Assembly: GCA_025458035.1 (NCBI GenBank)
Contig: JALOTH010000008.1
Location: forward strand, 1-41,167
Length of the DNA stretch: 41,167 nucleotides
Source of the DNA: Rhodospirillales bacterium
Lineage (GTDB): Bacteria > Pseudomonadota > Alphaproteobacteria > Rhodospirillales > Defluviicoccaceae
Direction of reading: 5' to 3'
Shown piece after piece: positions 1 through 26,483 of the stretch (position 1 is the first letter of the stretch; every line of letters begins with the position of its first letter). The notes beneath the pieces were generated by a model. That model had not been told where the DNA came from and searched no databases. It saw only the letters and a list, made by a program, of their open reading frames with translations. The translations under genes were made by a program, and so were the position numbers.

Positions 1-1287
1 GCTTTGCCGGCTGAGACCGAGGAGTTCGGCCGTCAACGTGCGGTTTCCCCGGGTCAATTGGAGAGCCGCTTCGATGTAATGCCGTTCGACGACGCCGACT
101 GTCTCGCGGACGAGTTGGCTCAACGGACTCTTGCCGACCTCCTGCGTCAGCGCGTTCAGCATCGAGCCCAGCCCGTCGCCGGCGACCGACGTCGGCAGAC
201 GGTGTCCGACCGCGCGAATGACGACGCCAATCTCGGCAAACCCGGCCTCGGACACGCCGGCCGCGGAAATCTCGACTTCGACATCGGTGCCAAGCTCGCC
301 GTGGATCGATGTCGAGAACAGCCGGACGAAGCCATGTTCACGAATGTTGACGATCATGACCTTAAGGTCGGCACCGGGACGGCCAAGCCATCGTCCGAGA
401 CGCTGGCCAACCACAATCCCCTCCGCTCCAACCTGCACGAGATCGAGGAAAGCCCGGTTCGCGCGGATGATGACACCGTCCCGATCCATGACAACGAAAC
501 CGTCGGGCAACCGATCGATCAGCTCGGCGAGCGAACCCCCTTCGTTCGGGTTGGCTTCGGCCGGGGGCAGCCCGGCCGGCGACAGTTGCAGCAAGAACAC
601 CGAGCCCGGCGAAGCGGTCATCACCGAGGCGCGCAACAGCCACGGTTGGCGGTGGCGTCCCAGGTGGATCAGCAGGCTGGGCGCCTTTCCCTGCTCGCGG
701 ACGCGGTTGAGCATGGCGACGACGGCGCTCCGGTCCTCGGGCGCCACTTCCCGCAGCAGGTCTTGACCCTCGGAGCGGGAGCCGAGGGCGCTGATCGCCG
801 CCGGATTGGCCTCGATGATGTGGAAATTGGCGGCCCGCACCAGCAGCACGGCCTCCTTCGAAGCGTCGAAGAGGAGGCGATAGCGGGCTTCCGCCTCACG
901 CACCTTCCAGTAGTCCCGCTCCATCGCGTGCTGCGCGGCAACCAGGCGCGCTTGCAGTTCGGCGACCGCTTCCAGGCTCTTGCCCACGGCGATGAGGCCG
1001 CCGCCATTGCCCAGGGAGACCGCCGTATACTCGATCGGCAGTTCGAGACCGCTTGGAAAGCGTTGATTGACTTGTCGAAAACCGGAAGCGCCGTTTTCGC
1101 GGGCATCCTCGACAAGGCGGCGTACCTTATCGGCGCCGACATCGGCCACCGTTTCGGCCCAGGGCCGGCCGATCCAGCCATCGGCGCCACCCTGCGGAAC
1201 GTCCGCCGACAGCCTCGCCTCGCGGATAATCCCCTCGCGATCGAGAACGAGAGTGATATCGGGTTGCTGGACGCGTGTACTAATCAT
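1..1287 (-). CDS. ppsR: PpsR/CrtJ-family PAS-PAS-HTH photosynthesis regulator (paralog 1), C-terminus truncated by the window edge; not in the supplied ORF track
   Basis: Manual translation from ATG 1287 (MISTRVQQPDITLVLDREGIIREARLSADV...) is open to base 1 and ends ...VRETVGVVERHYIEAALQLTRGNRTLTAELLGLSRQS, the Fis-type HTH of PpsR; clearly similar to the 20993-22396 product. Confidence 0.9.
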   Translation of the reverse strand, partial: MISTRVQQPDITLVLDREGIIREARLSADVPQGGADGWIGRPWAETVADVGADKVRRLVEDARENGASGFRQVNQRFPSGLELPIEYTAVSLGNGGGLIAVGKSLEAVAELQARLVAAQHAMERDYWKVREAEARYRLLFDASKEAVLLVRAANFHIIEANPAAISALGSRSEGQDLLREVAPEDRSAVVAMLNRVREQGKAPSLLIHLGRHRQPWLLRASVMTASPGSVFLLQLSPAGLPPAEANPNEGGSLAELIDRLPDGFVVMDRDGVIIRANRAFLDLVQVGAEGIVVGQRLGRWLGRPGADLKVMIVNIREHGFVRLFSTSIHGELGTDVEVEISAAGVSEAGFAEIGVVIRAVGHRLPTSVAGDGLGSMLNALTQEVGKSPLSQLVRETVGVVERHYIEAALQLTRGNRTLTAELLGLSRQS

Positions 1288-1514: not shown

Positions 1515-1958
1515 TCACTCCGAGGTCTTGCCAGACTGCTGTCTCCGGTCGATGGCCTCTTCCAAGCTGAGCTTCGTGACCTCATACAAATCACGCACCG
1601 ACACCATGCCCACCAGCCGGCCCTGATCGACGACGGGAAGATGGCGGTAGCCGCGCAGCCGCATCAGGGTGAGGGCGTCTTCTGCCGTGTCATCGGGGCG
1701 CAACGTGTCGGGATTGGCGCTCATGATGTCTTTCAGTGCCGTCAGCGTCGGATCGCGGCCTTCCGCGACCACTCGCCGGGTGATGTCACGCTCGGTGACG
1801 ATGCCGATCACCTGGCGGCGGTCGTCGACAATGACGATGGCGCCAACGTTGAAATAGCTCATCCGGCGGGCCGCTTCGTCGACACGGCCATCCGCCTGCA
1901 TCGCGCACAGCTTCTGCTCGTGGATGATATCGGGGATGATCTTCAGCCTGTGCGGCAT
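1515..1958 (-). CDS. CBS-domain-pair protein
   Basis: 147 aa; two CBS repeats (VGAIVIVDDRRQVIGIVTERDITRRVV ... RGYRHLPVVDQGRLVGMVSVRDLYEV). Confidence 0.88.
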   Translation of the reverse strand: MPHRLKIIPDIIHEQKLCAMQADGRVDEAARRMSYFNVGAIVIVDDRRQVIGIVTERDITRRVVAEGRDPTLTALKDIMSANPDTLRPDDTAEDALTLMRLRGYRHLPVVDQGRLVGMVSVRDLYEVTKLSLEEAIDRRQQSGKTSE

Positions 1959-2000: not shown

Positions 2001-2678
2001 CTATGACCACCGAACGTCGAAAACGCACGATGCGTTGCCCATGGCGGCACATTCAACCTCATGAACCGTGGCCCCATGGTGGACCAATTCGCGATAAAGC
2101 CGCTCGAAGGTCGCCGCAAAGTAGGCGCACGCGGGCATCGCGGTGCTGAGCTGCCGACAGATCGGGCAGCCGGTGATGGCGATCCGTGGCGATGCGCCGC
2201 CCTTCGCGTCGAACTGTCCACTGCCGACGAACGTCCAGGCGTTGCTGGCGATGGCGGCAAGGAGCAACCGGCTTGCGAGGCCCGGCGGCAAGCGCCGAAG
2301 CACCCATTGCGCCAACCGCGGAATGCGGTGGGCGAGGAGGTAGTCGGCGGTGCGCGAGCCCGCCGATCGGCAGACCGCGAGCACCGTGTCCGGACCGAGG
2401 TCGCGAACGATGGCGGCATGAAGCGCGGAGACGTCCGCCTCGGCCACCATCTGCGTCGGCGGTAGGTCGAGGTAATGCGCAAGGTTGCAGTCGGTGAACA
2501 CGCGCCGCGTTGCCGCCGGGCCGATTTCCTCGGCCAGCGCCTCGGCCATGCGGGTGATGGCGTTGGGGCCAATGCGCCCGGAGCGAGCCGCGTGCGCAGC
2601 GGCATCCCCCTCTGGCGCAACGGCCGCTCCGTTGCCGCTGCCGGCCCGCAGGCGCTGAGACGGCAGCGACACGGTCAC
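2001..2678 (-). CDS. bchJ: BchJ, bacteriochlorophyll biosynthesis 4-vinyl reductase family protein
   Basis: 225 aa, GTG start; BchJ/V4R-like C-terminus (GCPICRQLSTAMPACAYFAATFERLYRELVHHGATVHEVECAAMGNASCVFDVRW) and position next to bchE. Confidence 0.85.
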   Translation of the reverse strand: MTVSLPSQRLRAGSGNGAAVAPEGDAAAHAARSGRIGPNAITRMAEALAEEIGPAATRRVFTDCNLAHYLDLPPTQMVAEADVSALHAAIVRDLGPDTVLAVCRSAGSRTADYLLAHRIPRLAQWVLRRLPPGLASRLLLAAIASNAWTFVGSGQFDAKGGASPRIAITGCPICRQLSTAMPACAYFAATFERLYRELVHHGATVHEVECAAMGNASCVFDVRWS

Positions 2679-2685
2679 CGGCGCG

Positions 2686-4230
2686 CTACTCCGCCGCCGA
2701 AGCGGTGATGCGGGCAGGTTCGTCCGGCAGCTGCTGATCTCCGCCGCCGCAGGCCTTGACCGCAGCGTGACGGCCTTTCGCCTTGCGCGACCGGTCGGCC
2801 GCCGCCACCCAATCCTCCATCTGCGCCTCGGCGATGGTGCGGTTCGGATCGAAGTGGAAATCGACGCGTTTACGCGACTGTGGTCCCCAGTAATTGACCT
2901 TACCGAGGTCGTAGAACTTGCGTTCGAATCCAGCTTTCAGGAAAGCCTTCAGGCAACCGAGGAGATACCGCCGGCGGAAGCCGGTCCCTGCCCAAGGATA
3001 CGAGAAAAGCGCCTTGAAGCTGTAAAAGCGGCGGTAGTTGTGCATGACGCGGTCCAACAACTCGCCGCGGTCCATGGCCTCGGGCTTGATGATCGGTGTA
3101 ACGAAGTTGTACTTCTCAAAGTCGAAAATTTCCACCTTGTCGCCGAGTTCATGGAAAAGATTGGAAAATGGCCATGGCGTATACATCGCCCAGTTCACCA
3201 GATCGGGTTTCCAGTCCCGTGCCATGCGGTAGGTTTCTTCGAGGGTTTCCGCCGTTTCGTTTTCGAGGCCGACGATGAATTGCGCTTCGACGACGATGCC
3301 GGCTTCCCGCAGCAGCCGCACGGCTTTCTTGTTTTGAGCGACGGTCGTCTCCTTGTTGAAGCGATCGAGCTTGAGTTGCGCCGCCGCTCGGGTATTGATT
3401 CCCCACTTGATCTTTTCCGGGAGACCGCGGTCGATCAGCTCCCGGCAAAACGCGACGAATTTGTTGCGGTTAATCGTCGGCTCTTCGTCGGCGAGAATGA
3501 AAAAGCCGACCTGGTGATCGCGGACCAGCGCTTCGATCTCGTCGACGACTTTCTTCGGGTCGCGGACCCGGTAATCCCGCCAGAACTTCCACTGCGAGCA
3601 GAAGGAGCACGTAAACGGACAGCCGCGCGCCATGTTGGGAATGGCAACCCGTACGCCCAGGGGGATGTACTGATACTTTTCCCATTCCAGGATGCCCCAA
3701 TCGGGGTTGATGGCATCCAGGTTCTGAACCGTTGGCGCCGCTTCGGTGGCGACGATGGACGCCTCCTCACGGAAAGCGAGCCCCTTGATCGCGTGCCGGT
3801 CATGGGGCCACCGCCGCTCGTCGATCGCGCGCACGAGATCGATCAGGATCTCTTCGCCCTCGCCGCGCACGATGACGTCGATCCAGGGCGCTTCACTGAG
3901 CACCTGCTTGTACATGAAGGTGGCGTGGACGCCACCCAGGATGGTCACCGTACCGCTGTTGACCTCCTTGGCGATCTCGAGGGCGCGCTCCGCCTTGTAG
4001 ATCGATGGTGTGATCGCGGTGGCGCCGACGACATCGGCCTGCGCGGCGATGAGGCGTTCGCGGAGCGCCTCATCGGAGAGGTCATTGGTCATCGCGTCGA
4101 TGAACTGGACATCGTCGAAACCGGCGGTCTTCAACGATCCCGCCAAGTAAGCGACCCACGCGGGCGGCCAGTTGCCGGCGATCTCCGCCCCACCGGAGTG
4201 GTAGTTGGGATGAATGAGTACGATACGCAT
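2686..4230 (-). CDS. bchE: BchE, anaerobic Mg-protoporphyrin IX monomethyl ester cyclase (B12-binding radical SAM)
   Basis: [38 protein letters not shown]; radical SAM CxxxCxxC ([17 protein letters not shown]). Confidence 0.95.
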
Positions 4231-4303: not shown

Positions 4304-5518
4304 TCACGCCGCCCGTTTCAAACTGAGCGCGGACCAGATCGTCGACAGGGCATCGACGAAGTAGTCGATGTCGGCATCGGAATGCAGTGGTGATGGCGTG
4401 ATCCGCAGGCGTTCCGTACCGCGCGGCACCGTCGGATAGTTGATGGGCTGCACGTAGATCCCGTACTCCTCCATGAGAATGTCGGTGATCTGTTTGCAGC
4501 GCACCGGATCGCCGACGATGACCGGGACGATGTGGCTCGGGTTGTCGTAATGCGGCACGCCGACGCCATCAAGGCGCCGCCGCACGGTCTGCACGCGATC
4601 TCGCTGAAGGGCGCGCTCGACGGAGCTCGTCTTCAGGTGACGGATGCTGGCGCAGGCACCGGCGGCGACCGCCGGCGGCAGGGCGGTGGTGAAGATGAAG
4701 GCGGACGCGAAGCTGCGCACGAAGTCACAGACGGCAGCCGAGCCGGCGATGTAACCGCCAAGCACGCCGAATGCCTTGGCCAACGTGCCCTCGATCACGG
4801 TGAGGCGGTGGGCCACGCCATCGCGCTCGGAAACGCCGCCACCGCGGGGGCCGTAGAGGCCAACCGCATGCACCTCGTCGATGTAGGTCATGGCGCCGTG
4901 TTTCTCGGCGACGTCGCACAGCGCGGCGATCGGCGAGATATCGCCATCCATGGAATAGACGGATTCGAAGGCGACGAGCTTGGGCCGCTTCGGGTCGATG
5001 GCGGCGAGCTTGCGGTCGAGATCGTCAGGATCGTTGTGCCGGAAGATCTGCTTTTCGGCGCGGGACTGGCGGATGCCCTCAATCATCGAGGCATGATTCA
5101 ACTCATCCGAAAGCACGACGCATCCGGGAAGCTTGGCCGCCAGCGTCGACAACGCCGCCAAGTTGGAGACGTAGCCCGAGGTGAACACCAGTGCCGCCTC
5201 GGTGCCGTGCAGATCCGCCAGCTCCTGTTCGAGCAGGATGACATTGTGGTTGGTGCCGGAGATGTTGCGGGTTCCACCGGCTCCCGCCCCGCACGTGTCC
5301 AGCGCTTCGTGCATGGCCGCGAGCACCGCCGGATGCTGGCCCATGCCGAGGTAATCGTTGGAGCACCAAACCGTGACCTCGGCCTGCCGTCCCTGCGCGC
5401 CATAGTGGGTGGCACGGGGGAAATGGCCGGCGTGGCGGGCGAGATCGGCGAACACCCGGTACCGGCCTTCCTTGCGGAGGGTCTGCAGCTCCTGCGCGAA
5501 AAAGTTTTGATAGTCCAT
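4304..5518 (-). CDS. hemA: 5-aminolevulinate synthase
   Basis: [26 protein letters not shown]..., [30 protein letters not shown] upstream; the longer 4304-6397 ORF is a read-through frame. An ATG at 5521 is also possible. Confidence 0.96.
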
Positions 5519-5520
5519 CA

Positions 5521-6459
5521 TTACCTCCCGTTTGTAGTTGGCGCTGGCCGCGGTGGCGAGGACGCGAACGCGCTCGCCGGCTTCAAACCGGCAAGAGGCT
5601 CGCAGGCACGCCGGCAGCGGCCGGCTGACGGCGTGTCGATGAGGGTTGGCGGCAATCTTCCGGGGATGTCCTGGCGGCACTGACGGGCGGCCGGCAGCGC
5701 CCAGTTCCACAGCGCCGAGTCCGGTAGCGTCAGGACGAGAAAGCCATGTTCCAGAACCGCCAGCAGAATCAGGCTCCCCACCAACAGGGCGCTGACGATC
5801 TCGGTCGACGTCGCGTCGCTGCGCACCACCGTCGACAGCACGGAGGCGGCAGCCGTCAGGGACAGCAGGATCGAGAACGGAAACAAGGCGTTCATCGGCC
5901 GCCTGACGATGAAGCTTTCCAGATAACGCAGGTGATCGGGGAACCACTGCAGATTGAGGTGCGGCACGCCGAGAAAAATGTTGAGCTTCGCGCTCCAGCG
6001 CATCAGCCACAGGGTGACGAACGTCCAGGTGCCGACCTGATTGGGCGCGCCCCAGGTCAGTGCGATCGTGCCGCCGGCGAAGGCGACGATCGCCAGTTCG
6101 TGGTAGAGGCTGGCCTTGAGCGCGAGCACGAAGCGCCGCCAGGCGCTGACGCCGGCAGGGCAGGGAAGGGGTCTGGGGCCGGTCAGCACACCCGTATAGT
6201 AGCTCATTTCGAGCCAACCCCAGATCAGCACGCCGCAAAGGAAGGCGACATAGGCGCCGGGAACCGTCGCCTCCCGGCTCGCCCAGCTGAGCCCGATGAC
6301 GGAGGCCGCGAGGATGACGGTGGCAACGATGAGACTCCGCCGATAGCTGGCCGGCGGCCGGTTGACCGCCAGCAAGACAAGTCCGGTGGCGCACCACCAG
6401 ACCAGCAGGGTAAACACGATCGGCAAGGCATGCAGGGTCATGCGGGGGTGTCCGTTCAC
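5521..6459 (-). CDS. puhE: PuhE photosynthetic complex assembly protein
   Basis: Multi-TM protein with [21 protein letters not shown] motifs typical of the PuhE family; between acsF and hemA; stop overlaps the hemA start region. Confidence 0.85.
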
Positions 6460-7526
6460 CAGGCCGGGGTCAATCGGACCCGGTTGGGGACAGCGTTGGA
6501 CCGTGCCGGCAGCGCGTAAAGGCGCAGAAAGCCGGCGGCGGCGGCGGCGCTCAACGCCGCCAGCTTCACCGGCGCCAGCAGGCCGCCCCGTTTACGGACG
6601 GCGGCTTTGGCTTCGGCAATCCGCCGCAGCCGTTCCAGGCCCGAGCGGAACTTCGGGTGGTCGATGTCCAGCGTCAGCGGGAAGACTTGCCGCATGATGC
6701 TCGATGTGATGCGAAACACCGTGAAATCGTAGTCGGTGGGATCGAGCCCGAGAGCAGCATAGAAATTTGGCCGCGAGTGATCGCGCACGTACATGGTGGC
6801 GAAAACGGCGAGAATGAAAAATCGGATGAGCAGCCGGTTGGGGCCCTTGAGGAGCTGCGGATGGCCGCGCATCAGCAGCGCAAATGCCTCACCATGCCGG
6901 AACTCATCGTTACACCATTCCTTGAACCAGCCAAAAATCGGATGAAATTGCCGATCGGGGTGGCGTTCGATCTGACGAAAAATCGTGATGTAGCGCGCGT
7001 AGCCGATTTTTTCGGAGAGATACGTCGCGTAGAAAATGAATTTTGGACTGAAGTGCGTGTATTTTTTCGCGGACTTCAGAATACTCAGATCGATCGCCAA
7101 GCCAAAATCGGCAAGGGACTCATTGATGAAGTTGGCATGGCGGGCTTCGTCCCGGCTCATGTACCCCATCAGCATGCGAATATCAGGATTGCTGGTGTTC
7201 TTTTTGATGTCTGCGTAAAGCAGGCATCCCGAGAACTCCGCCGTGATCGATGAAATCAGGAAATCCAGAAATTCCTCACGCAACGCGTCCGGCATCGCCT
7301 CCACCGCGGCACGGAACGCCTCCGTTCGCTTGAAGTGGCGCAGGTTCGTATCGTTGCGGAACTCGTCGATCAGACGGTCCCACTCCTCGCGAACCGCCGA
7401 AACGTCGAGCCGGTCCATCGCCGCGAAGTCGGTGGTGTAGAATCGCGGCGAGAGCAGGGTATCGGCGAGCGCCCGCTCGGTGGCCGGATTGCGGGCGGCA
7501 GGGGTCGTCGATGTCGCGGCGATCAT
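6456..7526 (-). CDS. acsF: AcsF, oxygen-dependent Mg-protoporphyrin IX monomethyl ester cyclase
   Basis: Diiron motifs [42 protein letters not shown]. Confidence 0.96.
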
Positions 7527-8008
7527 GACGGGCGATCCTTGGGGTTGAGCAGCCGGGCGAACGCGGCGGCGTTGGTCGAGCCGAACGCGTCCAGTCCGAT
7601 GACGCGGCCCGTCGACGGGTCGGAGAGCAGGAGGCGATGATCGGCATCGCGGCTCAGGACGAACGGGAGGTCCTGGCTGACACCATGTGCCGTCCGCTCC
7701 CGGACGAGACTGCGCATCACGCCACGGATGAAGTTATCGTGGCCCGGGGCGAGCACCTCGATCTCCCGACTGGCTTCCGTGTCGATGACCACGACGGCAC
7801 CGTCGCCACGGTCGGCAAAGCGGAGCTGGCGGCTCTGCTCGGCGCTGGCGGCGGGCAGGGTCACGGTGCCGGTTCCGGTCAAGCGGCCGGCGCCGGCCAA
7901 CGCCACGGCAAAAGCAAGCAGCAGCCCGGCGCCAATGAGGGCACGTCGGGGAAGGAACTTCGAGCCCGCGTGCGCGTTCATCGCCACCTCGTGCCGCCCG
8001 CTGGTCAT
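7523..8008 (-). CDS. puhC: PuhC photosynthetic complex assembly protein
   Basis: 161 aa, one N-terminal TM, ...[17 protein letters not shown]-like motif ([20 protein letters not shown]), conserved puhABC order. Confidence 0.88.
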
Positions 8009-8667
8009 GCCGCGGTCGCCAAGGGCCGCGGCTTGGCGAGCACCGCAACGGCCGGTTCGTCCGCCTGCGGCGTTGGCGCCGGCGCCGGCTGGTGCATCGG
8101 CGCGAGCGCGGCGGCGAGGATCTGAGCAACGCGGGCGGCATCGGGGATGCAGCGGAGAGTGGGCTCAGGCCGCGAAACGCGCCACGGCCGGACGTGTGGC
8201 CAAGCCACGAAATAACCCAGCCGCTGCGACGCCGTTGGCGTCAGGGAGATATCGCCGCTGCCGTCGCCGTACGATCGCAGGCCGGCCGCCTCCACGGCGG
8301 AAAAGGGAACGTTGATGGTCATCGGCAGAGCGACGCCGACGCTCATGACGAGCCGCCGATTGGTCAGGGTGTAAACGGTTGAGCGGGAGATCAGCCACGC
8401 CAGCAAACCAAACAACGCAATCGCCGCGAGCAACACCGGCAGCAACAGTGCGGCGGACAGGAGGGCGTCGGCGGCGGCGGCGCCGTCCGCCAGGCCGGAC
8501 GCCATGCGCCAGGCCATCAGGACGCCGAAGTAGATGGTGATCATCCGCAGGTGAAACAGGCGCACGGCCAGGCTGCGCCAAGCCGGTGCCCCCTGCCAAA
8601 GGATGTGTTCGCCGTCGGGCAGCCGCTCCGGCAAGCCGCGGTCGTGTTCGAGGTCGTGGTCGGTCAC
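8005..8667 (-). CDS. puhB: PuhB photosynthetic complex assembly protein (PH-like domain)
   Basis: LPDGEHILWQGAPAWRSLAVRLFHLRMITIYFG; YTLTNRRLVMSVGVALPMTINVPF. Confidence 0.92.
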   Translation of the reverse strand: MTDHDLEHDRGLPERLPDGEHILWQGAPAWRSLAVRLFHLRMITIYFGVLMAWRMASGLADGAAAADALLSAALLLPVLLAAIALFGLLAWLISRSTVYTLTNRRLVMSVGVALPMTINVPFSAVEAAGLRSYGDGSGDISLTPTASQRLGYFVAWPHVRPWRVSRPEPTLRCIPDAARVAQILAAALAPMHQPAPAPTPQADEPAVAVLAKPRPLATAA

Positions 8668-9437
8668 AGCAGCGGCTCCGCGCGGCTTGGTGTGGCATAG
8701 AGATGACCGCTGGCGAAATAGGCCGAGATGCGATCTTCTTCACGCGCCGTGATTTGGTCGGGGTTCTGCAAGGCCGGCACGGTGGCGAAATGGCGGGCAA
8801 GCACCGAGGCGACCTTGACCTGGCGCCGGCCGCCATCGACGCGAGCGAAGGTCATCGGCAGCAGGGCGCGCCGGGGGGTCGTGCCGCTCACCTCGACTTC
8901 GAGGAAGCTGATCCGCGGCTCCGCGCGATCCACCCACACGTCCTTGACGACACCGGCGACCGCGCCGTCGGCGGCGACGACGGTCATGCCGCGCGGATCG
9001 GGATCCTGGGGTTCGATCCAGAAGTCGGTGGCGACGCGCAGCGGCGCCATGCGCGGTTCGCCTTCGAGCGTCAGCTCGGGCTTATCGGAGCGCAGCGCGT
9101 AGGCGGCCGGGCCAACCGCGTCGAGCATCGGATCTCCCGTCGGCTGCAGCGGGGCGCCCGGAAACGCGGCGACGGGCTTTGCCTTGATCTCCCGGGTGTC
9201 GTGCTCCGCGCGCGGCGCGGTTTCGATGCCGCCGTGGGGGAGCCGGAACGTCTTCGGCTCCGGCACCCAAATGAACCCATGGTCCAAGGGCTTGCCGGTG
9301 ATGTCGTTGATGAGCGGATAGCCCTCGCGCCGATCTTCCCGCCGCAGATAAAAGATCAGCCCGGCGAAAAAGATCCAGAAGGCGTAGAGAACAACCAGTG
9401 CCACGTCGATCCCGCTGGTGATGGCGCCGATTTCCAT
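8664..9437 (-). CDS. puhA: Photosynthetic reaction center subunit H
   Basis: MEIGAITSGIDVALVVLYAFWIFFAGLIFYLRREDRREGYPL; VKDVWVDRAEPRISFLEVEV. Confidence 0.96.
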   Translation of the reverse strand: MEIGAITSGIDVALVVLYAFWIFFAGLIFYLRREDRREGYPLINDITGKPLDHGFIWVPEPKTFRLPHGGIETAPRAEHDTREIKAKPVAAFPGAPLQPTGDPMLDAVGPAAYALRSDKPELTLEGEPRMAPLRVATDFWIEPQDPDPRGMTVVAADGAVAGVVKDVWVDRAEPRISFLEVEVSGTTPRRALLPMTFARVDGGRRQVKVASVLARHFATVPALQNPDQITAREEDRISAYFASGHLYATPSRAEPLL

Positions 9438-9463
9438 GTGTCGTCCCTCCTTGGCTGCTGCCG

Positions 9464-10897
9464 TCAGCCGGGCAGTTCGGCTAAACCAAACTTCGAAGGC
9501 GTTGGCGGACGGCGCAGCCGCGCCGGACCGGCCAGCGGCCCGATGACCGCCAACGTCGCGAAGAGCAATGCGATCTCAATGTGATAGACAACGCTGTAAC
9601 CGACCGCGGGACCGGCCAACGCCTCGCCGAGGATGCCGGCGCTGCCGAGGCTCGAAACGGCATCGCGAAGGGCGCCAGCGATGGCGATCGACGCACCGGC
9701 GGCGGTCGCCTGCACCGCACCCCAGGCGCCAAGGGCCAATCCGCTCTGGCCCGATGCCGCCAAATCCATGGCGGCGGTCATCGTTCCCACGGCAAAAAGT
9801 CCACCGCCGAGGCCGATCACGAACGTGCCGGCGCGGAACAGCAGTCCGGATGACAGCGGTGCGGCGAAGATCACGGCGGAGAACGCGACGATGCCGATCA
9901 GCACCCCGGCGGCCGATAGGCGATAGGGATCGAGGCCGCGGCCGAGCCAGCGCGCCGCCAAGCAGAACCCGGCCAGCGCGCCCGAAGCCAGCAGTGCGGT
10001 GAGCAGTGTCGTGGCACCGACGCTGAAACCCAGGATCTGCCCGCCGTAGGGCTCCAGCAGAATATCCTGCATGCTGAAGCCGGCGGTGCCGAGGCCGACC
10101 GCGATGAGCAGGCGCCCGCTGCGTGTGCCTTGGCTCATCGTCCGCCAGGCGTCGCGCAGACCGGGACGGGGCCGGTCGTGGCGGGTCCGCTGCGGATCGC
10201 GCGCCTCCTGCTTCCACAGCGCCGCCGTGTTGAGGACCATGGTCGCTACGGCTGCGGCTTGAATCACTTGGATCAGGGCGATCGGTGAGTAGTCGGCAAG
10301 GAGCGCGCCAAACGTGAGGGAGCTTGCCACCATGCCGAGGAGGAACATCACGTACAAAAGAGCGACGACGCGCGGCCGCCGGTCCGCCGGCAGCAAGTCG
10401 GTGGCGAGAGCGAGGCCCGCGGTTTGTGTCGTATGCAGGCCGGCGCCAACCAGAAGGAACGCCAGTGCGGCCCCGATATGTCCGACCACCGCCGGCGCGT
10501 GCGTATCGCCGGACAGCACCAGCAGCGCGAATGGCATGATCGCCAGGCCGCCGAACTGCAGCACCGATCCCATCCAGATGAAGGGGCTGCGCCGCCAGCC
10601 GAGGAACGAGCGGTGGGTATCGGAGCGAAAGCCGATGAGCACGCGGAAGGGAGCGATGACCAGCGGCAGCGCCACCATCAGCCCGACCATCCAGGCCGAG
10701 GTTCCGAGCTCGACGATCATCACCCGGTTCAACGTTCCGGTCAGCAGGGCGACGGCCATACCCACGGAGACCTGGAACAAGGAGAGCCGCAGCAGCCGGG
10801 ACAGCGGCACGTCGACGGTGGCGGCATCCGCAAATGGCAGGAACTTCGGACCGAGCCCGCTCCAGGCCCCGGCGAAGCGTTCCGTCAGGCGTCGCAT
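9464..10897 (-). CDS. lhaA: LhaA, PucC-family MFS light-harvesting 1 assembly protein
   Basis: LLRLSLFQVSVGMAVALLTGTLNRVMIVELG; internal ATG 10897 (MRRLTERFAGAW) preferred over the longer ORF because it gives a short overlap with bchM. Confidence 0.92.
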   Translation of the reverse strand: MRRLTERFAGAWSGLGPKFLPFADAATVDVPLSRLLRLSLFQVSVGMAVALLTGTLNRVMIVELGTSAWMVGLMVALPLVIAPFRVLIGFRSDTHRSFLGWRRSPFIWMGSVLQFGGLAIMPFALLVLSGDTHAPAVVGHIGAALAFLLVGAGLHTTQTAGLALATDLLPADRRPRVVALLYVMFLLGMVASSLTFGALLADYSPIALIQVIQAAAVATMVLNTAALWKQEARDPQRTRHDRPRPGLRDAWRTMSQGTRSGRLLIAVGLGTAGFSMQDILLEPYGGQILGFSVGATTLLTALLASGALAGFCLAARWLGRGLDPYRLSAAGVLIGIVAFSAVIFAAPLSSGLLFRAGTFVIGLGGGLFAVGTMTAAMDLAASGQSGLALGAWGAVQATAAGASIAIAGALRDAVSSLGSAGILGEALAGPAVGYSVVYHIEIALLFATLAVIGPLAGPARLRRPPTPSKFGLAELPG

Positions 10898-11594
10898 CGA
10901 TGCACCAGCTGGGCGGCTTGCGAAGTGTAGAAACCGTTCACGATCCGCTCCGTGCGCGCGAGCGACCATGCCTTCAGGTCAGGTTGGGCGGCAAGCGCGT
11001 CCCGCAACTGCCGTTCGGCAACGGGCTCGATCGCGGGAGCGCGGTCGGTGCGGGGAAACAGCCGGCCGATGGCGTGCATCACGGCGAGCGGCGCCGTTCG
11101 CGGCGCAAAGGTGAACAGGATGGAGCGGTCGGCACGGGCGGCCAGACCGACGAGGGCAGCGATCGCATCGTCGGGCGAGTAGTGAATCAGGGAGTCCATG
11201 GCGATGACGCGATCGAACCGGCCGAGGTCGGGGTCGAGCATATCGCCAACGGCGAACTCGACATCGCCGGCGCCGGATGACGGCGCCATCCGTTCGCGCG
11301 CCAGGCTGATCAGGGTCGGCGAGATATCGACGGCCACGACATGGGCGCCCCGGCTCGCCAACGCCATCGCCAAGGCGCCGGTGCCGCAGCCGGCGTCCAA
11401 GATGCGTTCGCCGCGAAGATCGGCCGGCAGCCAGTCCAGGAGCGTTTGCCGCATGCGGTCGCGGCCCGCCCGCACGGTGGCACGGATGCGGCCGACCGGT
11501 TGTTCCGAGGTCAGGCGGGTCCATGCCTCCACCGCCGTCTTGTCGAAATAGACGGCGATCTGCCCCCGCCGCTTTTGGTAGGTCTGGGTCTGCA

Positions 11595-11595
<1 letters not shown>
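10885..11595 (-). CDS. bchM: Mg-protoporphyrin IX O-methyltransferase
   Basis: SAM-MTase motif ILDAGCGTGALAMALASRGAHVVAVDIS; TGATG junction with bchL. Confidence 0.95.
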
Positions 11596-16193
<4,598 letters not shown>

Positions 16194-16219
<26 letters not shown>

Positions 16220-17768
16220 CGTATAGGGTCTCAACAGTGATCACGGTGACGCCGCGAACGCGAGCAAAGCTCTCCGTGTTACGGCGAGCTTTGCCGCGGA
16301 CAAAAAACGGGATCTTGCGGAGTTCGCGCTCCGCTTCCAGGTCCCAACTCGCCGCCGGGCCTGGCGCCGGGGGCGCCGATGCGATGGATGCGGGGACCGC
16401 CGCGGCCACGTCGACCGGCTTCGCCGGAGTGCCGAGGTGGGATGGCGCGATGCCATCGCGGAACTCGAAGTCCTCCCGGAACATGGTCAGGAGGTGCTCT
16501 TCGAGGCCCATCATCAGCGGATGCACCCAGCTATCGAACAGCACGTTGGCGCCTTCAAAGCCCATCTGCGGCGAGTAGCGCGCCGGATAATCCTGAACGT
16601 GCGTCGGCGCCGAGATGACGGCACACGGGATGCCGAGCCGCTTCGCGATATGCCGCTCCATCTGTGTGCCGAGGACCAGCTCGGGCTGCAGCGCCGCGAT
16701 CGCCGCTTCGACCTCCAGGTAATTGTCGGTGATCAGCGCCTCGATGTCGTACTGACGCGCCGCGTCGCGAACCTCACGGGCAAACTCGCGGCTGTAGCTG
16801 CCGAGGCCGACGACCTCGAAGCCCAACTCCCGCGCCGCAACCCGCGCGGCGGCAACGGCATGGGTGGCGTCGCCGAAAATGAATACCCGCTTTCCCGTCA
16901 GATAGGTTGAGTCGACGGAACGCGAATACCAAGGCAGGCGCGAAGCCTGGTCGCTCAGCGCCGGTTCCGGGTCAATGCCGGTCAGCCGGGCGATTTCGTT
17001 GACGAAGTCCCGGGTGGCGCCAACGCCAAGGGGCGCGGCACTGACCAGCGGCTGCCCGAACTCGCGCTTCAGCCATTGCGCCGCCGTCGCGCCGATCTCG
17101 GGATAGAGGACAACATTGAAGTCGGCCGCACCGAGCCGCGCGAGATCGGCCGGCGTGGCGCCGAGGGGGGCGATCACGTTGACCTCAACGCCGATGCGCG
17201 CCAGCAGCTTTGCAACCTCCTCGACATCATCGCGATGGCGAAAACCGAGAGCCGTCGCCCCCAGCAGGTTGCAGCGCGGGCGCACCGCTGCCGCCGGCTC
17301 CTTAGGCTGGCCGTCACGGCCTGCGGTGCCCGCGGCAAAGGTGCGAACCAGCCTGTAGAACGTCTCCGCTGCGCCCCAGTTTTCCTTGCGCTGATAGGCC
17401 GGAAGGTCGAGGGGGATGACCGGAATCGGTAGGCCGAGGGCGCGCGCCAGCCCCCCGGGATCGTCCTGGAGCAGCGATGCGGTGCACGAGGATCCGACGA
17501 GCATCGCCTGCGGCCGGAAACGATCGAAGGCTTCGCGGACAGCGCCCTGGAACAGCTCCGCGGTGTCGCTCCCGAGATCCCGCGCCTCGAACGTCGTATA
17601 CGTCACCGGCGGGCGCTTCTGCCGCCTTTCGATCATCGTGAACAGCAGGTCCGCATAGGTATCGCCCTGCGGTGCGTGCAGAACGTAGTGGACATGCTCC
17701 ATCGCCGTGGCGACCCGCATCGCGCCGATGTGGGGGGGGCCCTCGTATGTCCACAGCGACAGCTGCAT
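16194..17768 (-). CDS. bchB: DPOR subunit BchB
   Basis: [49 protein letters not shown]. Confidence 0.97.
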
Positions 17769-17773
17769 GGCGG

Positions 17774-19686
<1,913 letters not shown>

Positions 19687-19837: not shown

Positions 19838-19866
19838 AGTGTAAGTGCCGCATTTCCGGGTGTCAA
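19838..19866 (-). promoter_or_regulatory. Candidate bchF promoter
   Basis: Minus strand TTGACA (19861-19866), 17-nt spacer, TACACT (19838-19843). Confidence 0.5.
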
Positions 19867-19878
19867 GTTAACTGAACA
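19861..19878. promoter_or_regulatory. PpsR/CrtJ-type operator, box 1 (TGT-N12-ACA)
   Basis: tgtcaagttaactgaaca matches TGT-N12-ACA exactly. Confidence 0.75.
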
Positions 19879-20051: not shown

Positions 20052-20969
20052 ATGACCGTTTTGCGACACCTCAGGTTGGAAGGGTTTCCGTGGGACACGG
20101 TCGGCAAGGTGATCGCCGATCTGCGTCCGCATGCGCGGCGCGGCGCGGCAAGCGCAGCCAACGACGCGGGTCCTTCGCCCTTGTGGCTGGGCCGTGCCGT
20201 TGAAGGAGAGGTGATTCCCCGTCTCGTTGCGGCCCATGCCGCAGCGCGAGCGGTGCCGGAGCCGCAGCGGATTATCGGCAACGCGCCGGACGACGAGGAC
20301 GTGGCCGAATTCGCGAAGGCGCTGCTGGCGGAGGATCCCGCCGCGGCCAACACCTTTGTCAGCGGGATGATTCAACGGTCCGTTTCGCTGGAGACCATCT
20401 GCCTCCAGTTGATGACGCCAACCGCCCGCCGCATTGGCGACCTATGGGTTGCCGATCTCTGTCATTTCGTCGACGTCACCGTCGCGTTGGGCAGGCTTCA
20501 GTACCTGCTGCGGGCCTTGAGCCAAACGGTTTCGTACGCCGTGACCGTGCCGGACCATGGCCGGCGCGCGTTGCTGGCCGCCGTGCCGGGTGAACAGCAC
20601 ACCTTTGGCGCGTTGATGGTGGCGGAGTTTCTGCGCCGCGCCGGTTGGGATGTGGCCGGCGACATCAGCACGACGACGAATGAGGTCGTCGCCATCGTCC
20701 GCGATGAATGGTTTTCGCTGGTGGGGCTGTCGGCAAGCTCCGAGCGGACCGTCAGCGATCTGGTGCCGGTGATCTCGGCGATCCGCCAGACCTCGCGGAA
20801 TGCGGCGGTTGTTGTCCTGGTCGGCGGTAACGTGTTCCTTGAGCATCCCGATTTCGTTGCCCTTGTCGGCGCCGATGCGACCGCCGTCGACGCGCAACAG
20901 GCGGTTCTCAAAGCGGAACGACAGATCGCGCTGCAGCCGCCACCGGTTGCCGAAATCATCGAGGTTTGA
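20052..20969 (+). CDS. aerR: AerR/PpaA-family cobalamin-binding (SCHIC-type) antirepressor
   Basis: B12-binding-fold region (LLAAVPGEQHTFGALMVAEFLRRAGWDVAGDIST...VGLSASSERTVSDLVPVISAIRQTSRN); immediately upstream of ppsR. Confidence 0.88.
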   Translation: MTVLRHLRLEGFPWDTVGKVIADLRPHARRGAASAANDAGPSPLWLGRAVEGEVIPRLVAAHAAARAVPEPQRIIGNAPDDEDVAEFAKALLAEDPAAANTFVSGMIQRSVSLETICLQLMTPTARRIGDLWVADLCHFVDVTVALGRLQYLLRALSQTVSYAVTVPDHGRRALLAAVPGEQHTFGALMVAEFLRRAGWDVAGDISTTTNEVVAIVRDEWFSLVGLSASSERTVSDLVPVISAIRQTSRNAAVVVLVGGNVFLEHPDFVALVGADATAVDAQQAVLKAERQIALQPPPVAEIIEV

Positions 20970-20992: not shown

Positions 20993-22396
20993 GTGAAGCC
21001 ATTTCAGTCTCCGCAAGACATGCTGGGCGACCTCGAATGTTCGACCGTCGGGACGATCATCGCCGTCGCCGCTGACGTCGCGCTGATTGTCGATGGCGAT
21101 GGCATCGTTCGCGATCTCGCCCTCGGGCGAGACGAGATTCCCGACGAAATCTACAGCGATTGGGTCGGCCGGCACTGGGTTGAGATCGTCACCCCGGAGA
21201 GCCGGTCGAAGGTGGAAGCGCTCCGTCGCGAGGCAAGCCAGACGACGGTGACGTCGCGGCGACAACTCAATCACCGATCGCAGGAAGGCAGAGAAATTCC
21301 AGTTCTGTACGCAGCGGTCGAGATCCGGCCGGACGGCCGCATGGTCGCCGTCGGCCGCGACCTCAGCGACATGGCGATGCTTCAGCAGCGATTGGTTCAG
21401 GCGCAACAGGCGCTGGAACGGGATTATACCCGCCTTCGCCAGACGGAGATGCGCTATCGCCTGTTGTTCCGGATGACGTCGGAAGCGGTGTTGATTGTCG
21501 ACGCGGCGACATTGCGAATCACCGAGGCCAGTCCGGCGGCGCAAAGGCTGAGGACAGACGACAAGCCCCTCGTCGGGATGGAACTGGCGCAACTGTTCAG
21601 CCCGGCCAGCGCGCTGGCGGTGGACGCCCTGGTGGCGACGGTACGCACCATCGGCCATGCCGACGACGTGCGGGCCCGCCTTGCCGATGACGGCCGCGAG
21701 TTCCGCGTTTCGGCAACGCTGTTCCGCCAGGATCTCGCGTCATATGTCCTGCTGCGGTTGGCCCCGGTCGATGCGGAAGCGGTCGGCGCCGCGCGTGAGC
21801 GCTCGGAACCCAAACTTTGCCCGTACGCGGATGTCAGCGCCGACGGCCTCGCCGTGACCGACTCGCTCGGCCGGATGATCGCCGCGAACCGAGCCTTTTT
21901 CGAAATGGCCGAGCTTTCGGGCGAACGCCAGGCGATCGGCCAGTCGCTGGAACGCTGGCTGGGACGCAGCGGCGTCGACCTGCGCGTGCTGTTGACGAGC
22001 CTGCGGGAGAAGGGAGCCATCCGACTCTTTGCCACCAGCGTCCAGGGTGAGCAGGGCGGCACGACAGCGGTCGAGGTTTCCGCGTCGACGCTGGTGGAGA
22101 AGGGCGAGACGCGGTTCGTTTTTTCGATTCGCAACGTCAATCGGCGGCTCGGCCGCCCCCTCGGCGGGGGCCGCGAGGTGCCGCGTTCCGTCGAGCAGAT
22201 GAGCCAGTTGATCGGCATCGTGCCACTCAAGGAGATCGTGCGCGAATCGACGGACATCATCGAGCGTCTGTGCATTGAAGCCGCGCTCGACCTGACCAGC
22301 GACAATCGCGCGGCCGCCGCGGAGTTGCTCGGCCTCAGCCGGCAAAGCCTCTACGTCAAGCTCAGGCGTTTCGGGATCGACGACGCGGCCGTGTAG
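20993..22396 (+). CDS. ppsR: PpsR/CrtJ transcriptional regulator (paralog 2)
   Basis: 467 aa, GTG start with GAGG upstream; PAS repeats and C-terminal HTH IERLCIEAALDLTSDNRAAAAELLGLSRQSLYVKLRRFGI. Confidence 0.94.
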   Translation: MKPFQSPQDMLGDLECSTVGTIIAVAADVALIVDGDGIVRDLALGRDEIPDEIYSDWVGRHWVEIVTPESRSKVEALRREASQTTVTSRRQLNHRSQEGREIPVLYAAVEIRPDGRMVAVGRDLSDMAMLQQRLVQAQQALERDYTRLRQTEMRYRLLFRMTSEAVLIVDAATLRITEASPAAQRLRTDDKPLVGMELAQLFSPASALAVDALVATVRTIGHADDVRARLADDGREFRVSATLFRQDLASYVLLRLAPVDAEAVGAARERSEPKLCPYADVSADGLAVTDSLGRMIAANRAFFEMAELSGERQAIGQSLERWLGRSGVDLRVLLTSLREKGAIRLFATSVQGEQGGTTAVEVSASTLVEKGETRFVFSIRNVNRRLGRPLGGGREVPRSVEQMSQLIGIVPLKEIVRESTDIIERLCIEAALDLTSDNRAAAAELLGLSRQSLYVKLRRFGIDDAAV

Positions 22397-22467: not shown

Positions 22468-22485
22468 TGTCAACTCACATTGACA
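22468..22485. promoter_or_regulatory. PpsR/CrtJ-type operator upstream of bchG, box 1
   Basis: tgtcaactcacattgaca matches TGT-N12-ACA exactly. Confidence 0.75.
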
Positions 22486-24789: not shown

Positions 24790-25989
24790 ATGTCTGCATG
24801 TGAACGCTACGATGTGGCGGTTGTCGGCGGTGGACCGGCGGGAGCGACGGCGGCGGCCGATCTGGCGCAGCGCGGGCACTCGGTTCTGCTGCTGGACCGG
24901 GCCGGCCGGACCAAGCCTTGTGGCGGCGCCATTCCGCCGCGGCTGATCCGTGACTTCGAGATTCCCGCCGCGCTGCTGGTGGCCAAGGCGACCAGCGCCT
25001 GCATGGTGTCGCCGTCGGGCCGGAGCGTCGACATGCCGATCAACGGCGGCTACGTCGGCATGGTGGATCGCGACGTCTTCGATGAATGGTTGCGAACGCG
25101 CGCCGCCGACGCCGGCGCGATCCGGCGAACCGGTGTCTTTGAACGCCTCTCCCGCGACGACGATGGCACGGCGGTGATCCACTACCGCCACGGCAGCACC
25201 GGCGGCGACGAGACCGCCGTGGCGCGCGCCCGCGTCCTTATCGGGGCCGACGGTGCCAACTCGGCTGTCGCCAGGCAGGCGATGCCGGGCAGCAAGCGGC
25301 CGCCTTTTGTCTTCGCCTACCATGAGATCGTCCGTTCGCCGACGGCTGGTATCGTCAGCGATTTCGACGGCGCCCGCTGCCACATCTACTATCGCGGCAG
25401 CTTGTCGCCCGATTTCTACGCCTGGGTGTTTCCGCACGGCGACACCGTGAGCATTGGCACGGGCAGCGCCCAGAAAGGCTTTGCGCTTCGGGGCGCCGTC
25501 GCCGCGGTGCGCGCCGTTGCCGGTTTGCAGGGGATGGAAACGGTCCGCTGCGAGGGTGCGCCCATTCCCCTGCGTCCGCGCCGGCGATGGGACAACGGCC
25601 GCGATGTCCTCGTGATCGGCGATGCGGCCGGCACCGTCGCACCCGCTTCGGGCGAGGGGATCTATTACGCCATGGCCGGCGGCCGGCTGGCGGCGGAGGC
25701 GATCGATACCGTCATCCGGACCGGCGATGCACGGGCGCTCGCAACGGTGCGCAAGCGGTTCATGACCGCGCACGGGCGGGTGTTCTGGATCCTTGGCTTG
25801 TTACAGCGCTTCTGGTACGCCAACGATCGTCGTCGAGAACAGTTTGTCAGCATCTGCCGCGATCCCGACGTGCAGCACCTGACTTGGGAAGCGTATATGA
25901 ACAAGGAATTGGTGCGGGCGCGGCCGCTCGCCCACTTGCGGATCATGTTCAAGGATCTGGCGCACCTGCTTCGCCTCGTCTCTCCGTGA
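24790..25989 (+). CDS. bchP: Geranylgeranyl reductase BchP
   Basis: FAD motif YDVAVVGGGPAGATAAADLAQRGHSVLLLDR; VIGDAAGTVAPASGEGIYYAMAGGRLAAEAI. Confidence 0.94.
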   Translation: MSACERYDVAVVGGGPAGATAAADLAQRGHSVLLLDRAGRTKPCGGAIPPRLIRDFEIPAALLVAKATSACMVSPSGRSVDMPINGGYVGMVDRDVFDEWLRTRAADAGAIRRTGVFERLSRDDDGTAVIHYRHGSTGGDETAVARARVLIGADGANSAVARQAMPGSKRPPFVFAYHEIVRSPTAGIVSDFDGARCHIYYRGSLSPDFYAWVFPHGDTVSIGTGSAQKGFALRGAVAAVRAVAGLQGMETVRCEGAPIPLRPRRRWDNGRDVLVIGDAAGTVAPASGEGIYYAMAGGRLAAEAIDTVIRTGDARALATVRKRFMTAHGRVFWILGLLQRFWYANDRRREQFVSICRDPDVQHLTWEAYMNKELVRARPLAHLRIMFKDLAHLLRLVSP

Positions 25990-26483
25990 CCGAAGCCGCG
26001 CCACCCCTGTGGACGCCGATCCTCGTTGCCGCCATCGTCACCTTCGCCGTGGCAGCCCTGGGTAGTGCGCTCACCGATATCGGCCCCTGGTATTATGCTC
26101 TGAAGAAGCCGTCCTGGCAGCCGCCGGACTGGCTGTTTCCGGTGGGCTGGACGATCATCTTCACCCTCACCGCCACGGCCGCCGTCCTGTCCTGGCGAGC
26201 CGCATATGGAACGCCGCTGAGCGCCTGGATCGTTGTGCTGTTTGCGTTCAACGGCGTGCTGAACGCCTTGTGGAGTGCGCTGTTTTTCCGGTTGCAGCGT
26301 CCCGACTGGGCGCTGATCGAAGTGGTACTGCTGTGGCTGTCGATCGTCGCGCTCATCGCCGTGACTGCGTTGGTTTCCCGCACGGCGGCGGTGTTGCTGC
26401 TGCCGTATCTGCTGTGGGTCACCTTCGCCAGTGCGCTGAACACCGCTGTTGTTCGGATGAATGCCCCGTTTGGGGCTACTTAA
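25986..26483 (+). CDS. tspO: TspO/MBR family tryptophan-rich sensory protein
   Basis: DIGPWYYALKKPSWQPPDWLFPVGWTIIFTLTATAA; NGVLNALWSALFFRLQRPDWALIEV; GTG start overlaps the bchP stop. Confidence 0.9.
   Translation: MTEAAPPLWTPILVAAIVTFAVAALGSALTDIGPWYYALKKPSWQPPDWLFPVGWTIIFTLTATAAVLSWRAAYGTPLSAWIVVLFAFNGVLNALWSALFFRLQRPDWALIEVVLLWLSIVALIAVTALVSRTAAVLLLPYLLWVTFASALNTAVVRMNAPFGAT

Follow-up and report, generated by a model that had tools for sequence, protein, structure and literature searches.

The window analysed here, a stretch of 41,167 nucleotides that makes up the whole of contig C216 in a 3.1 Mb Rhodospirillales genome assembly (239 contigs, 96% complete), carries a photosynthesis gene cluster with two ppsR genes, termed ppsR-A and ppsR-B. 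Family scans and synteny give the minus-strand order, read from right to left, as bchF-N-B-H-L-M, lhaA, puhA-B-C, acsF, hemA, bchE, bchJ, a gene for a CBS-domain protein and ppsR-A. The divergent plus-strand genes encode an AerR-like B12-binding protein, ppsR-B, bchG, a PucC-family transporter, bchP and tspO. The features relevant to the two regulators are as follows.

1..1287, minus strand: ppsR-A, gene for a probable PpsR2-type repressor without the helix-turn-helix (HTH) Cys (TIGR02040, 453 bits; clade A, support 100/100; no Cys); truncated by the contig end
76..78, minus strand: codon of Tyr404 (tac on the minus strand), at the site of the redox Cys in other PpsR/CrtJ proteins (alignment; codon read from the sequence)
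1515..1958, minus strand: CBS-domain protein, between bchJ and ppsR-A (Pfam CBS, 87.6 bits; synteny)
2001-2678, minus strand: bchJ (scan with TIGR02019 / TIGR02026 for bchJ and bchE)
2686-4230, minus strand: bchE (same scan)
4304..9437, minus strand: hemA, acsF, puhC, puhB and puhA, the distal half of the bch-puh operon (TIGR01821, TIGR02029, TIGR03054, NF040894, TIGR01150)
9464..19686, minus strand: lhaA-like gene, bchM, bchL, bchH, bchB, bchN and bchF (family scans; lhaA from position and synteny only)
19861..19878, no strand assigned: TGTN12ACA PpsR box between bchF and aerR (exact motif match)
20052..20969, plus strand: aerR/ppaA-like gene for a B12-binding-domain protein, adjoining ppsR-B (Pfam B12-binding, 51 bits)
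20993..22396, plus strand: ppsR-B, canonical-type PpsR with HTH Cys427 (TIGR02040, 463.5 bits)
22271..22273, plus strand: codon of Cys427 of ppsR-B (coordinate computed from the frame)
22468..22485, no strand assigned: TGTN12ACA PpsR box upstream of bchG (exact match; overlaps the mechanical ORF start)

The CBS-domain gene occupies the same position between bchJ and ppsR-A in two relatives, G009 and G019. A TspO/MBR-family gene follows bchP at 25587-26483 of the window; in Rhodobacter, TspO is known to modulate regulation linked to tetrapyrroles and PpsR.

The open frame of ppsR-A runs on the minus strand from an ATG at 1287 to base 1 and comprises 429 visible codons with neither a stop nor a Cys, a further 20 or so codons being lost to the contig end. 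The product matches the NCBIfam PpsR-CrtJ model TIGR02040 at 453 bits across model positions 5-432 of 442 (curated cut-off, 275.4 bits) and contains PAS repeats and an HTH_8 (Fis-type HTH) domain, placing it within the PpsR/CrtJ family; the solved structure of Rhodobacter PpsR/CrtJ (4hh2) matches at 134 bits. The gene could not be completed from elsewhere in the assembly, as the first 24 bases of the window are absent from every contig other than C216. In all complete members of the clade described below, the C-terminus after the SRQ motif is without Cys, as judged by alignment, so that restoration of the function by the unseen tail is not expected. Comparison with the G009 and G019 relatives (68-71% identity) gave dN values of ∼0.21-0.23 against dS values of 1.2-1.7, and hence dN/dS of ∼0.14-0.18, indicating that the visible part of the gene is under purifying selection; the conserved HTH residues are also kept. 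Judged by its sequence, ppsR-A is a genuine gene, the second in the window for a PpsR repressor of photosynthesis.

At the HTH position of the Rhodobacter-type redox Cys (Cys424/Cys420), ppsR-A has Tyr404 and ppsR-B has Cys427. The PAS1 position (Cys251/Cys249; Cys251 in Rhodobacter sphaeroides PpsR) is Leu in both window copies, so that disulfide redox chemistry of the Rhodobacter type cannot be assumed for ppsR-B. The absence of the HTH Cys from one PpsR, combined with its presence in the second PpsR of the genome, is the pattern expected of PpsR2. Recent duplication within the cluster was considered as an origin of the pair and rejected, the copies being only 39% identical and falling in separate parts of the tree. 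The initial annotation had described bases 1287-1 as encoding a PpsR-family protein, free of Cys in all 429 visible codons, at the distal end of the bch-puh operon, and each of these points was confirmed by family scan, translation and gene order, respectively; the HTH strings that it quoted for the two genes are exact, and its placement of Cys427 is correct. Neither of the two observations named there as fatal was made, as far as the available sequence allows: the visible part of ppsR-A is free of frameshifts and stops, and the tails of complete relatives hold no Cys. The accompanying proposal, that a redox-responsive PpsR is paired with a thiol-blind one, is right in outline but stands only in part: the HTH Cys is indeed present in one PpsR of the window and missing from the other, and its loss is shared by the whole clade, but the complete absence of Cys is not a shared property, and ppsR-B has no equivalent of Cys251.

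Phylogenetic analysis placed ppsR-A in a single group of eight sequences, clade A, with 100/100 support and a long stem. The members are ppsR-A, its counterparts in genomes G009, G019, G049, G480 and G442 and in an Acidiphilium metagenome-assembled genome and, in the second of two trees (56 and 79 PpsRs, respectively), a plasmid gene from Thiodictyon. Support remained at 100/100 in the second tree, which was built with the HTH Cys column removed. That column holds Tyr in seven clade A members and Phe in one, versus Cys in 69 of the 71 other PpsRs, and on the sequence evidence ppsR-A is an old paralog and no local oddity. A complete lack of Cys was rejected as the defining trait: four of the eight members have none (the window's tail being unseen), while those of G049, G442, Acidiphilium and Thiodictyon carry one to three elsewhere, indicating that the HTH replacement is what the clade shares. 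In G009, G019, G049 and G480 the same bch-puh block has a PpsR gene at each end, with 17-20 kb separating the two; in G442 they are on different contigs. Halieaceae PpsRs and the second PpsR of G463 (L095) were examined as candidate relatives and rejected, as they retain the HTH Cys and are not clade A members, and scans of the two small orders around G660 and G692 found no genome with a second PpsR. Outside clade A, the HTH Cys has also been lost from L093 (G442; Tyr) and L063 (G108; Thr). Both PpsR copies found in G442 are thus without it, and this genome may lack redox sensing through that residue. The Thiodictyon gene (L110, 20004-21383) is carried by plasmid NZ_CP020372.1 of the gammaproteobacterium Candidatus Thiodictyon syntrophicum, where it follows bchG-pucC-bchP with no phytochrome gene beside it; transfer between classes is possible in this case. 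A search for plasmid-borne RpBphP1-type phytochromes returned none at E 1e-100. None of the four other genomes of the window's genus (G001-G004) has a PpsR above the cut-off, and, by PpsR alone, no phototroph other than the window's genome may have been sampled in the genus, which would reflect loss in the others or gain here.

Wherever an alphaproteobacterial relative has sequence beyond the ppsR-A counterpart, which is so in six, a phytochrome gene is found 3' of it on the same strand, at a spacing of 17-24 bases (117 in Acidiphilium, where the phytochrome copy ends at its contig end). The encoded proteins have a PAS-GAF-PHY architecture with no kinase, are ∼724 amino acids long where complete and in most cases show a PAS-fold match before the C-terminus. 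The G009 protein matches RpBphP1 of Rhodopseudomonas palustris (4gw9) at 814 bits, versus 318 for the highest-scoring phytochrome that is neither RpBphP1 nor a derivative of it, and it keeps the chromophore-site stretch NCE(Q/R)EQIHLAGSIQPHG. Across 66 PpsR-bearing genomes, an RpBphP1-type phytochrome, counted at ≥55% identity, occurs in six of the seven with a clade A gene and in none of the 59 others, in which the best match is ≤40% identical (Fisher, 7.7e-8, with the relatedness of the genomes uncorrected). A heme oxygenase gene adjoins that for the phytochrome in G009 and G049, as identified by Pfam, and in G019, as identified by similarity to the other copies. A possibly different phytochrome-PpsR linkage was observed in another family at L102 (G463 C122, 278-4882), where a second PpsR with the HTH Cys is divergent from a kinase-type phytochrome.

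Exact matches to the PpsR motif TGTN12ACA (PMC6899989) number seven in the window against 2.85 expected, a count reached in 5 of 100 shuffles and, by itself, only weak evidence. The boxes at 19861 and 22468 sit where PpsR boxes are expected, and the true start of bchG probably lies downstream of its mechanical ORF start. No exact box is present in the window in the gap before ppsR-A (1288-1514). Exact boxes do occur within ∼180 bases upstream of the ppsR-A counterparts in G019, G049 and G442, which, on sequence grounds, would be consistent with autoregulation of ppsR-bphP by PpsR.

In the mechanism proposed, PpsR-A would act as a PAS-PAS-PAS-HTH repressor of TGTN12ACA sites at its predicted targets, with DNA binding free of gating by an HTH thiol, the Cys there having given way to Tyr. 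Its input would come from the next gene downstream, just beyond the window edge, which would encode a type-3 bacteriophytochrome (PAS-GAF-PHY-PAS9, no kinase), such that bphP presumably falls within a gap in the assembly of this genome, and the heme oxygenase BphO would supply biliverdin to the phytochrome. Under far-red light the phytochrome would be expected to bind PpsR-A, which in the bound state would probably leave photosynthesis promoters, whilst ppsR-B, adjoining aerR and retaining the HTH Cys, would carry a redox and/or B12-light input. There is good reason for confidence that ppsR-A is the light-controlled member of the pair, with far-red phytochrome input, and ppsR-B the member with redox and/or B12-light input. 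Gene content, linkage and loss of the Cys together make ppsR-A the most likely bearer of the PpsR2 role and ppsR-B that of the redox/B12 role, and it is most likely light, not oxygen, that switches the photosynthesis genes via ppsR-A.

A different history for the clade is unlikely. Clade A would, on this account, not be orthologous to rhizobial PpsR2 but form a separate lineage, in which the HTH Cys was independently replaced by Tyr and the RpBphP1-type partner arose by convergence or cassette transfer. In the latter form, a ppsR-bphP cassette would have passed from one photosynthesis cluster to another across distant orders, and the gammaproteobacterial plasmid would have received only ppsR.

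Of the seven clade A genomes searched, the window's own is the one without an RpBphP1-type match: bphP has no match in the window or elsewhere in the assembly, and the contig stops ahead of the site of the gene. Contig C22 of the same genome carries pufLMC-bphO in the order seen in G019; at 8767-12493 (L111), the genes that come after pufLMC and bphO are holin-like and putA-like (the latter for proline dehydrogenase/aldehyde dehydrogenase), where G019 has bphP. Since the genes following bphO are unrelated, the photosynthesis cluster is evidently split in this genome. Loss of bphP, leaving ppsR-A as an orphan, thiol-blind PpsR that represses constitutively or is otherwise controlled, would be in keeping with the split, with the failure to match a phytochrome in an assembly that is 96% complete and with the Thiodictyon plasmid, which shows that a clade A gene can occur without an adjacent bphP. 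It is nevertheless improbable, as the contig ends ∼20 codons ahead of the ppsR-A stop, just before the expected start of bphP, bphO has been retained and ppsR-A is under purifying selection. Still less probable is differential redox tuning alone, with ppsR-A constitutive, antagonistic or heterodimer-forming with ppsR-B and lacking a light partner. These were the roles suggested in the initial annotation, and the distribution of the HTH Cys between the copies, together with the reported activator and repressor functions of Bradyrhizobium PpsR1 and PpsR2, respectively (PMC10569730), would be compatible with them; however, they leave out the direct partner, since the RpBphP1-type phytochrome co-occurs strictly with clade A and lies directly downstream in the relatives, which points to light control. 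That ppsR-A is a decaying pseudogene, its end being unseen where it runs off the contig, is barely credible given 429 open codons, the low dN/dS against two relatives and the conserved HTH residues.

Light control of ppsR-A, as the favoured reading, was compared with the systems already described. Both window proteins resemble Rhodobacter PpsR/CrtJ in belonging to the TIGR02040 family, and ppsR-A does so in domain order; unlike the Rhodobacter proteins, ppsR-A has no equivalent of Cys251 or Cys424, and ppsR-B has that of the HTH residue only. In Bradyrhizobium, PpsR2 is bacteriophytochrome-linked and has no Cys at the HTH position (PMC4452267, PMC10569730). The Bradyrhizobium PpsR1/PpsR2/BrBphP system thus shares with the window the presence of two PpsRs, one of which lacks the HTH Cys and is bacteriophytochrome-linked (here, from the phytochromes seen in relatives), but in the window ∼20 kb separates the two ppsR genes, which sit at either end of the bch-puh block. 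In R. palustris, RpBphP1 complexes with PpsR2 on far-red illumination, and PpsR2 is without the HTH Cys in most strains (PMC6899989). The likeness to RpBphP1-RpPpsR2 extends to a second PpsR with the Cys in the same cluster and to a type-3 phytochrome partner, known here from the relatives of ppsR-A. The systems differ in the replacing residue, which is Arg428 in R. palustris and Tyr in ppsR-A, and in gene order: the published block reads BphP-ppsR2-cycA-bchP-MFS-bchG-ppsR1 (PMC10569730), whereas in the relatives hemA/bchJ/CBS, ppsR-A and bphP are followed by bphO and puf in G009 and G019 (G442 differs).

For both R. palustris and Bradyrhizobium, PpsR2 is described as being under far-red control through BphP, with PpsR1 acting as a redox sensor (PMC6899989, PMC4452267, PMC10569730). 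Within the open-licence literature, as covered by titles and abstracts, this sharing of tasks, with one PpsR for redox and another for light, is published for Rhodopseudomonas and Bradyrhizobium only, the remaining PpsR2-bacteriophytochrome papers being concerned with optogenetic tools or being reviews; earlier reports elsewhere are possible. That several other alphaproteobacterial families follow this logic, in strict linkage with an RpBphP1-type phytochrome, suggests an old and possibly mobile regulatory module. The clade A proteins and their phytochromes would accordingly represent new natural far-red BphP-PpsR pairs, a kind of pair already established in optogenetics through BphP1-QPAS1 of R. 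palustris, and for ppsR-A itself a specific light-switch prediction replaces the description of a thiol-blind paralog of unknown role. The most fitting description of ppsR-A is that of a probable new member of the BphP-controlled PpsR2s, a kind already known and found here in several further alphaproteobacterial families.
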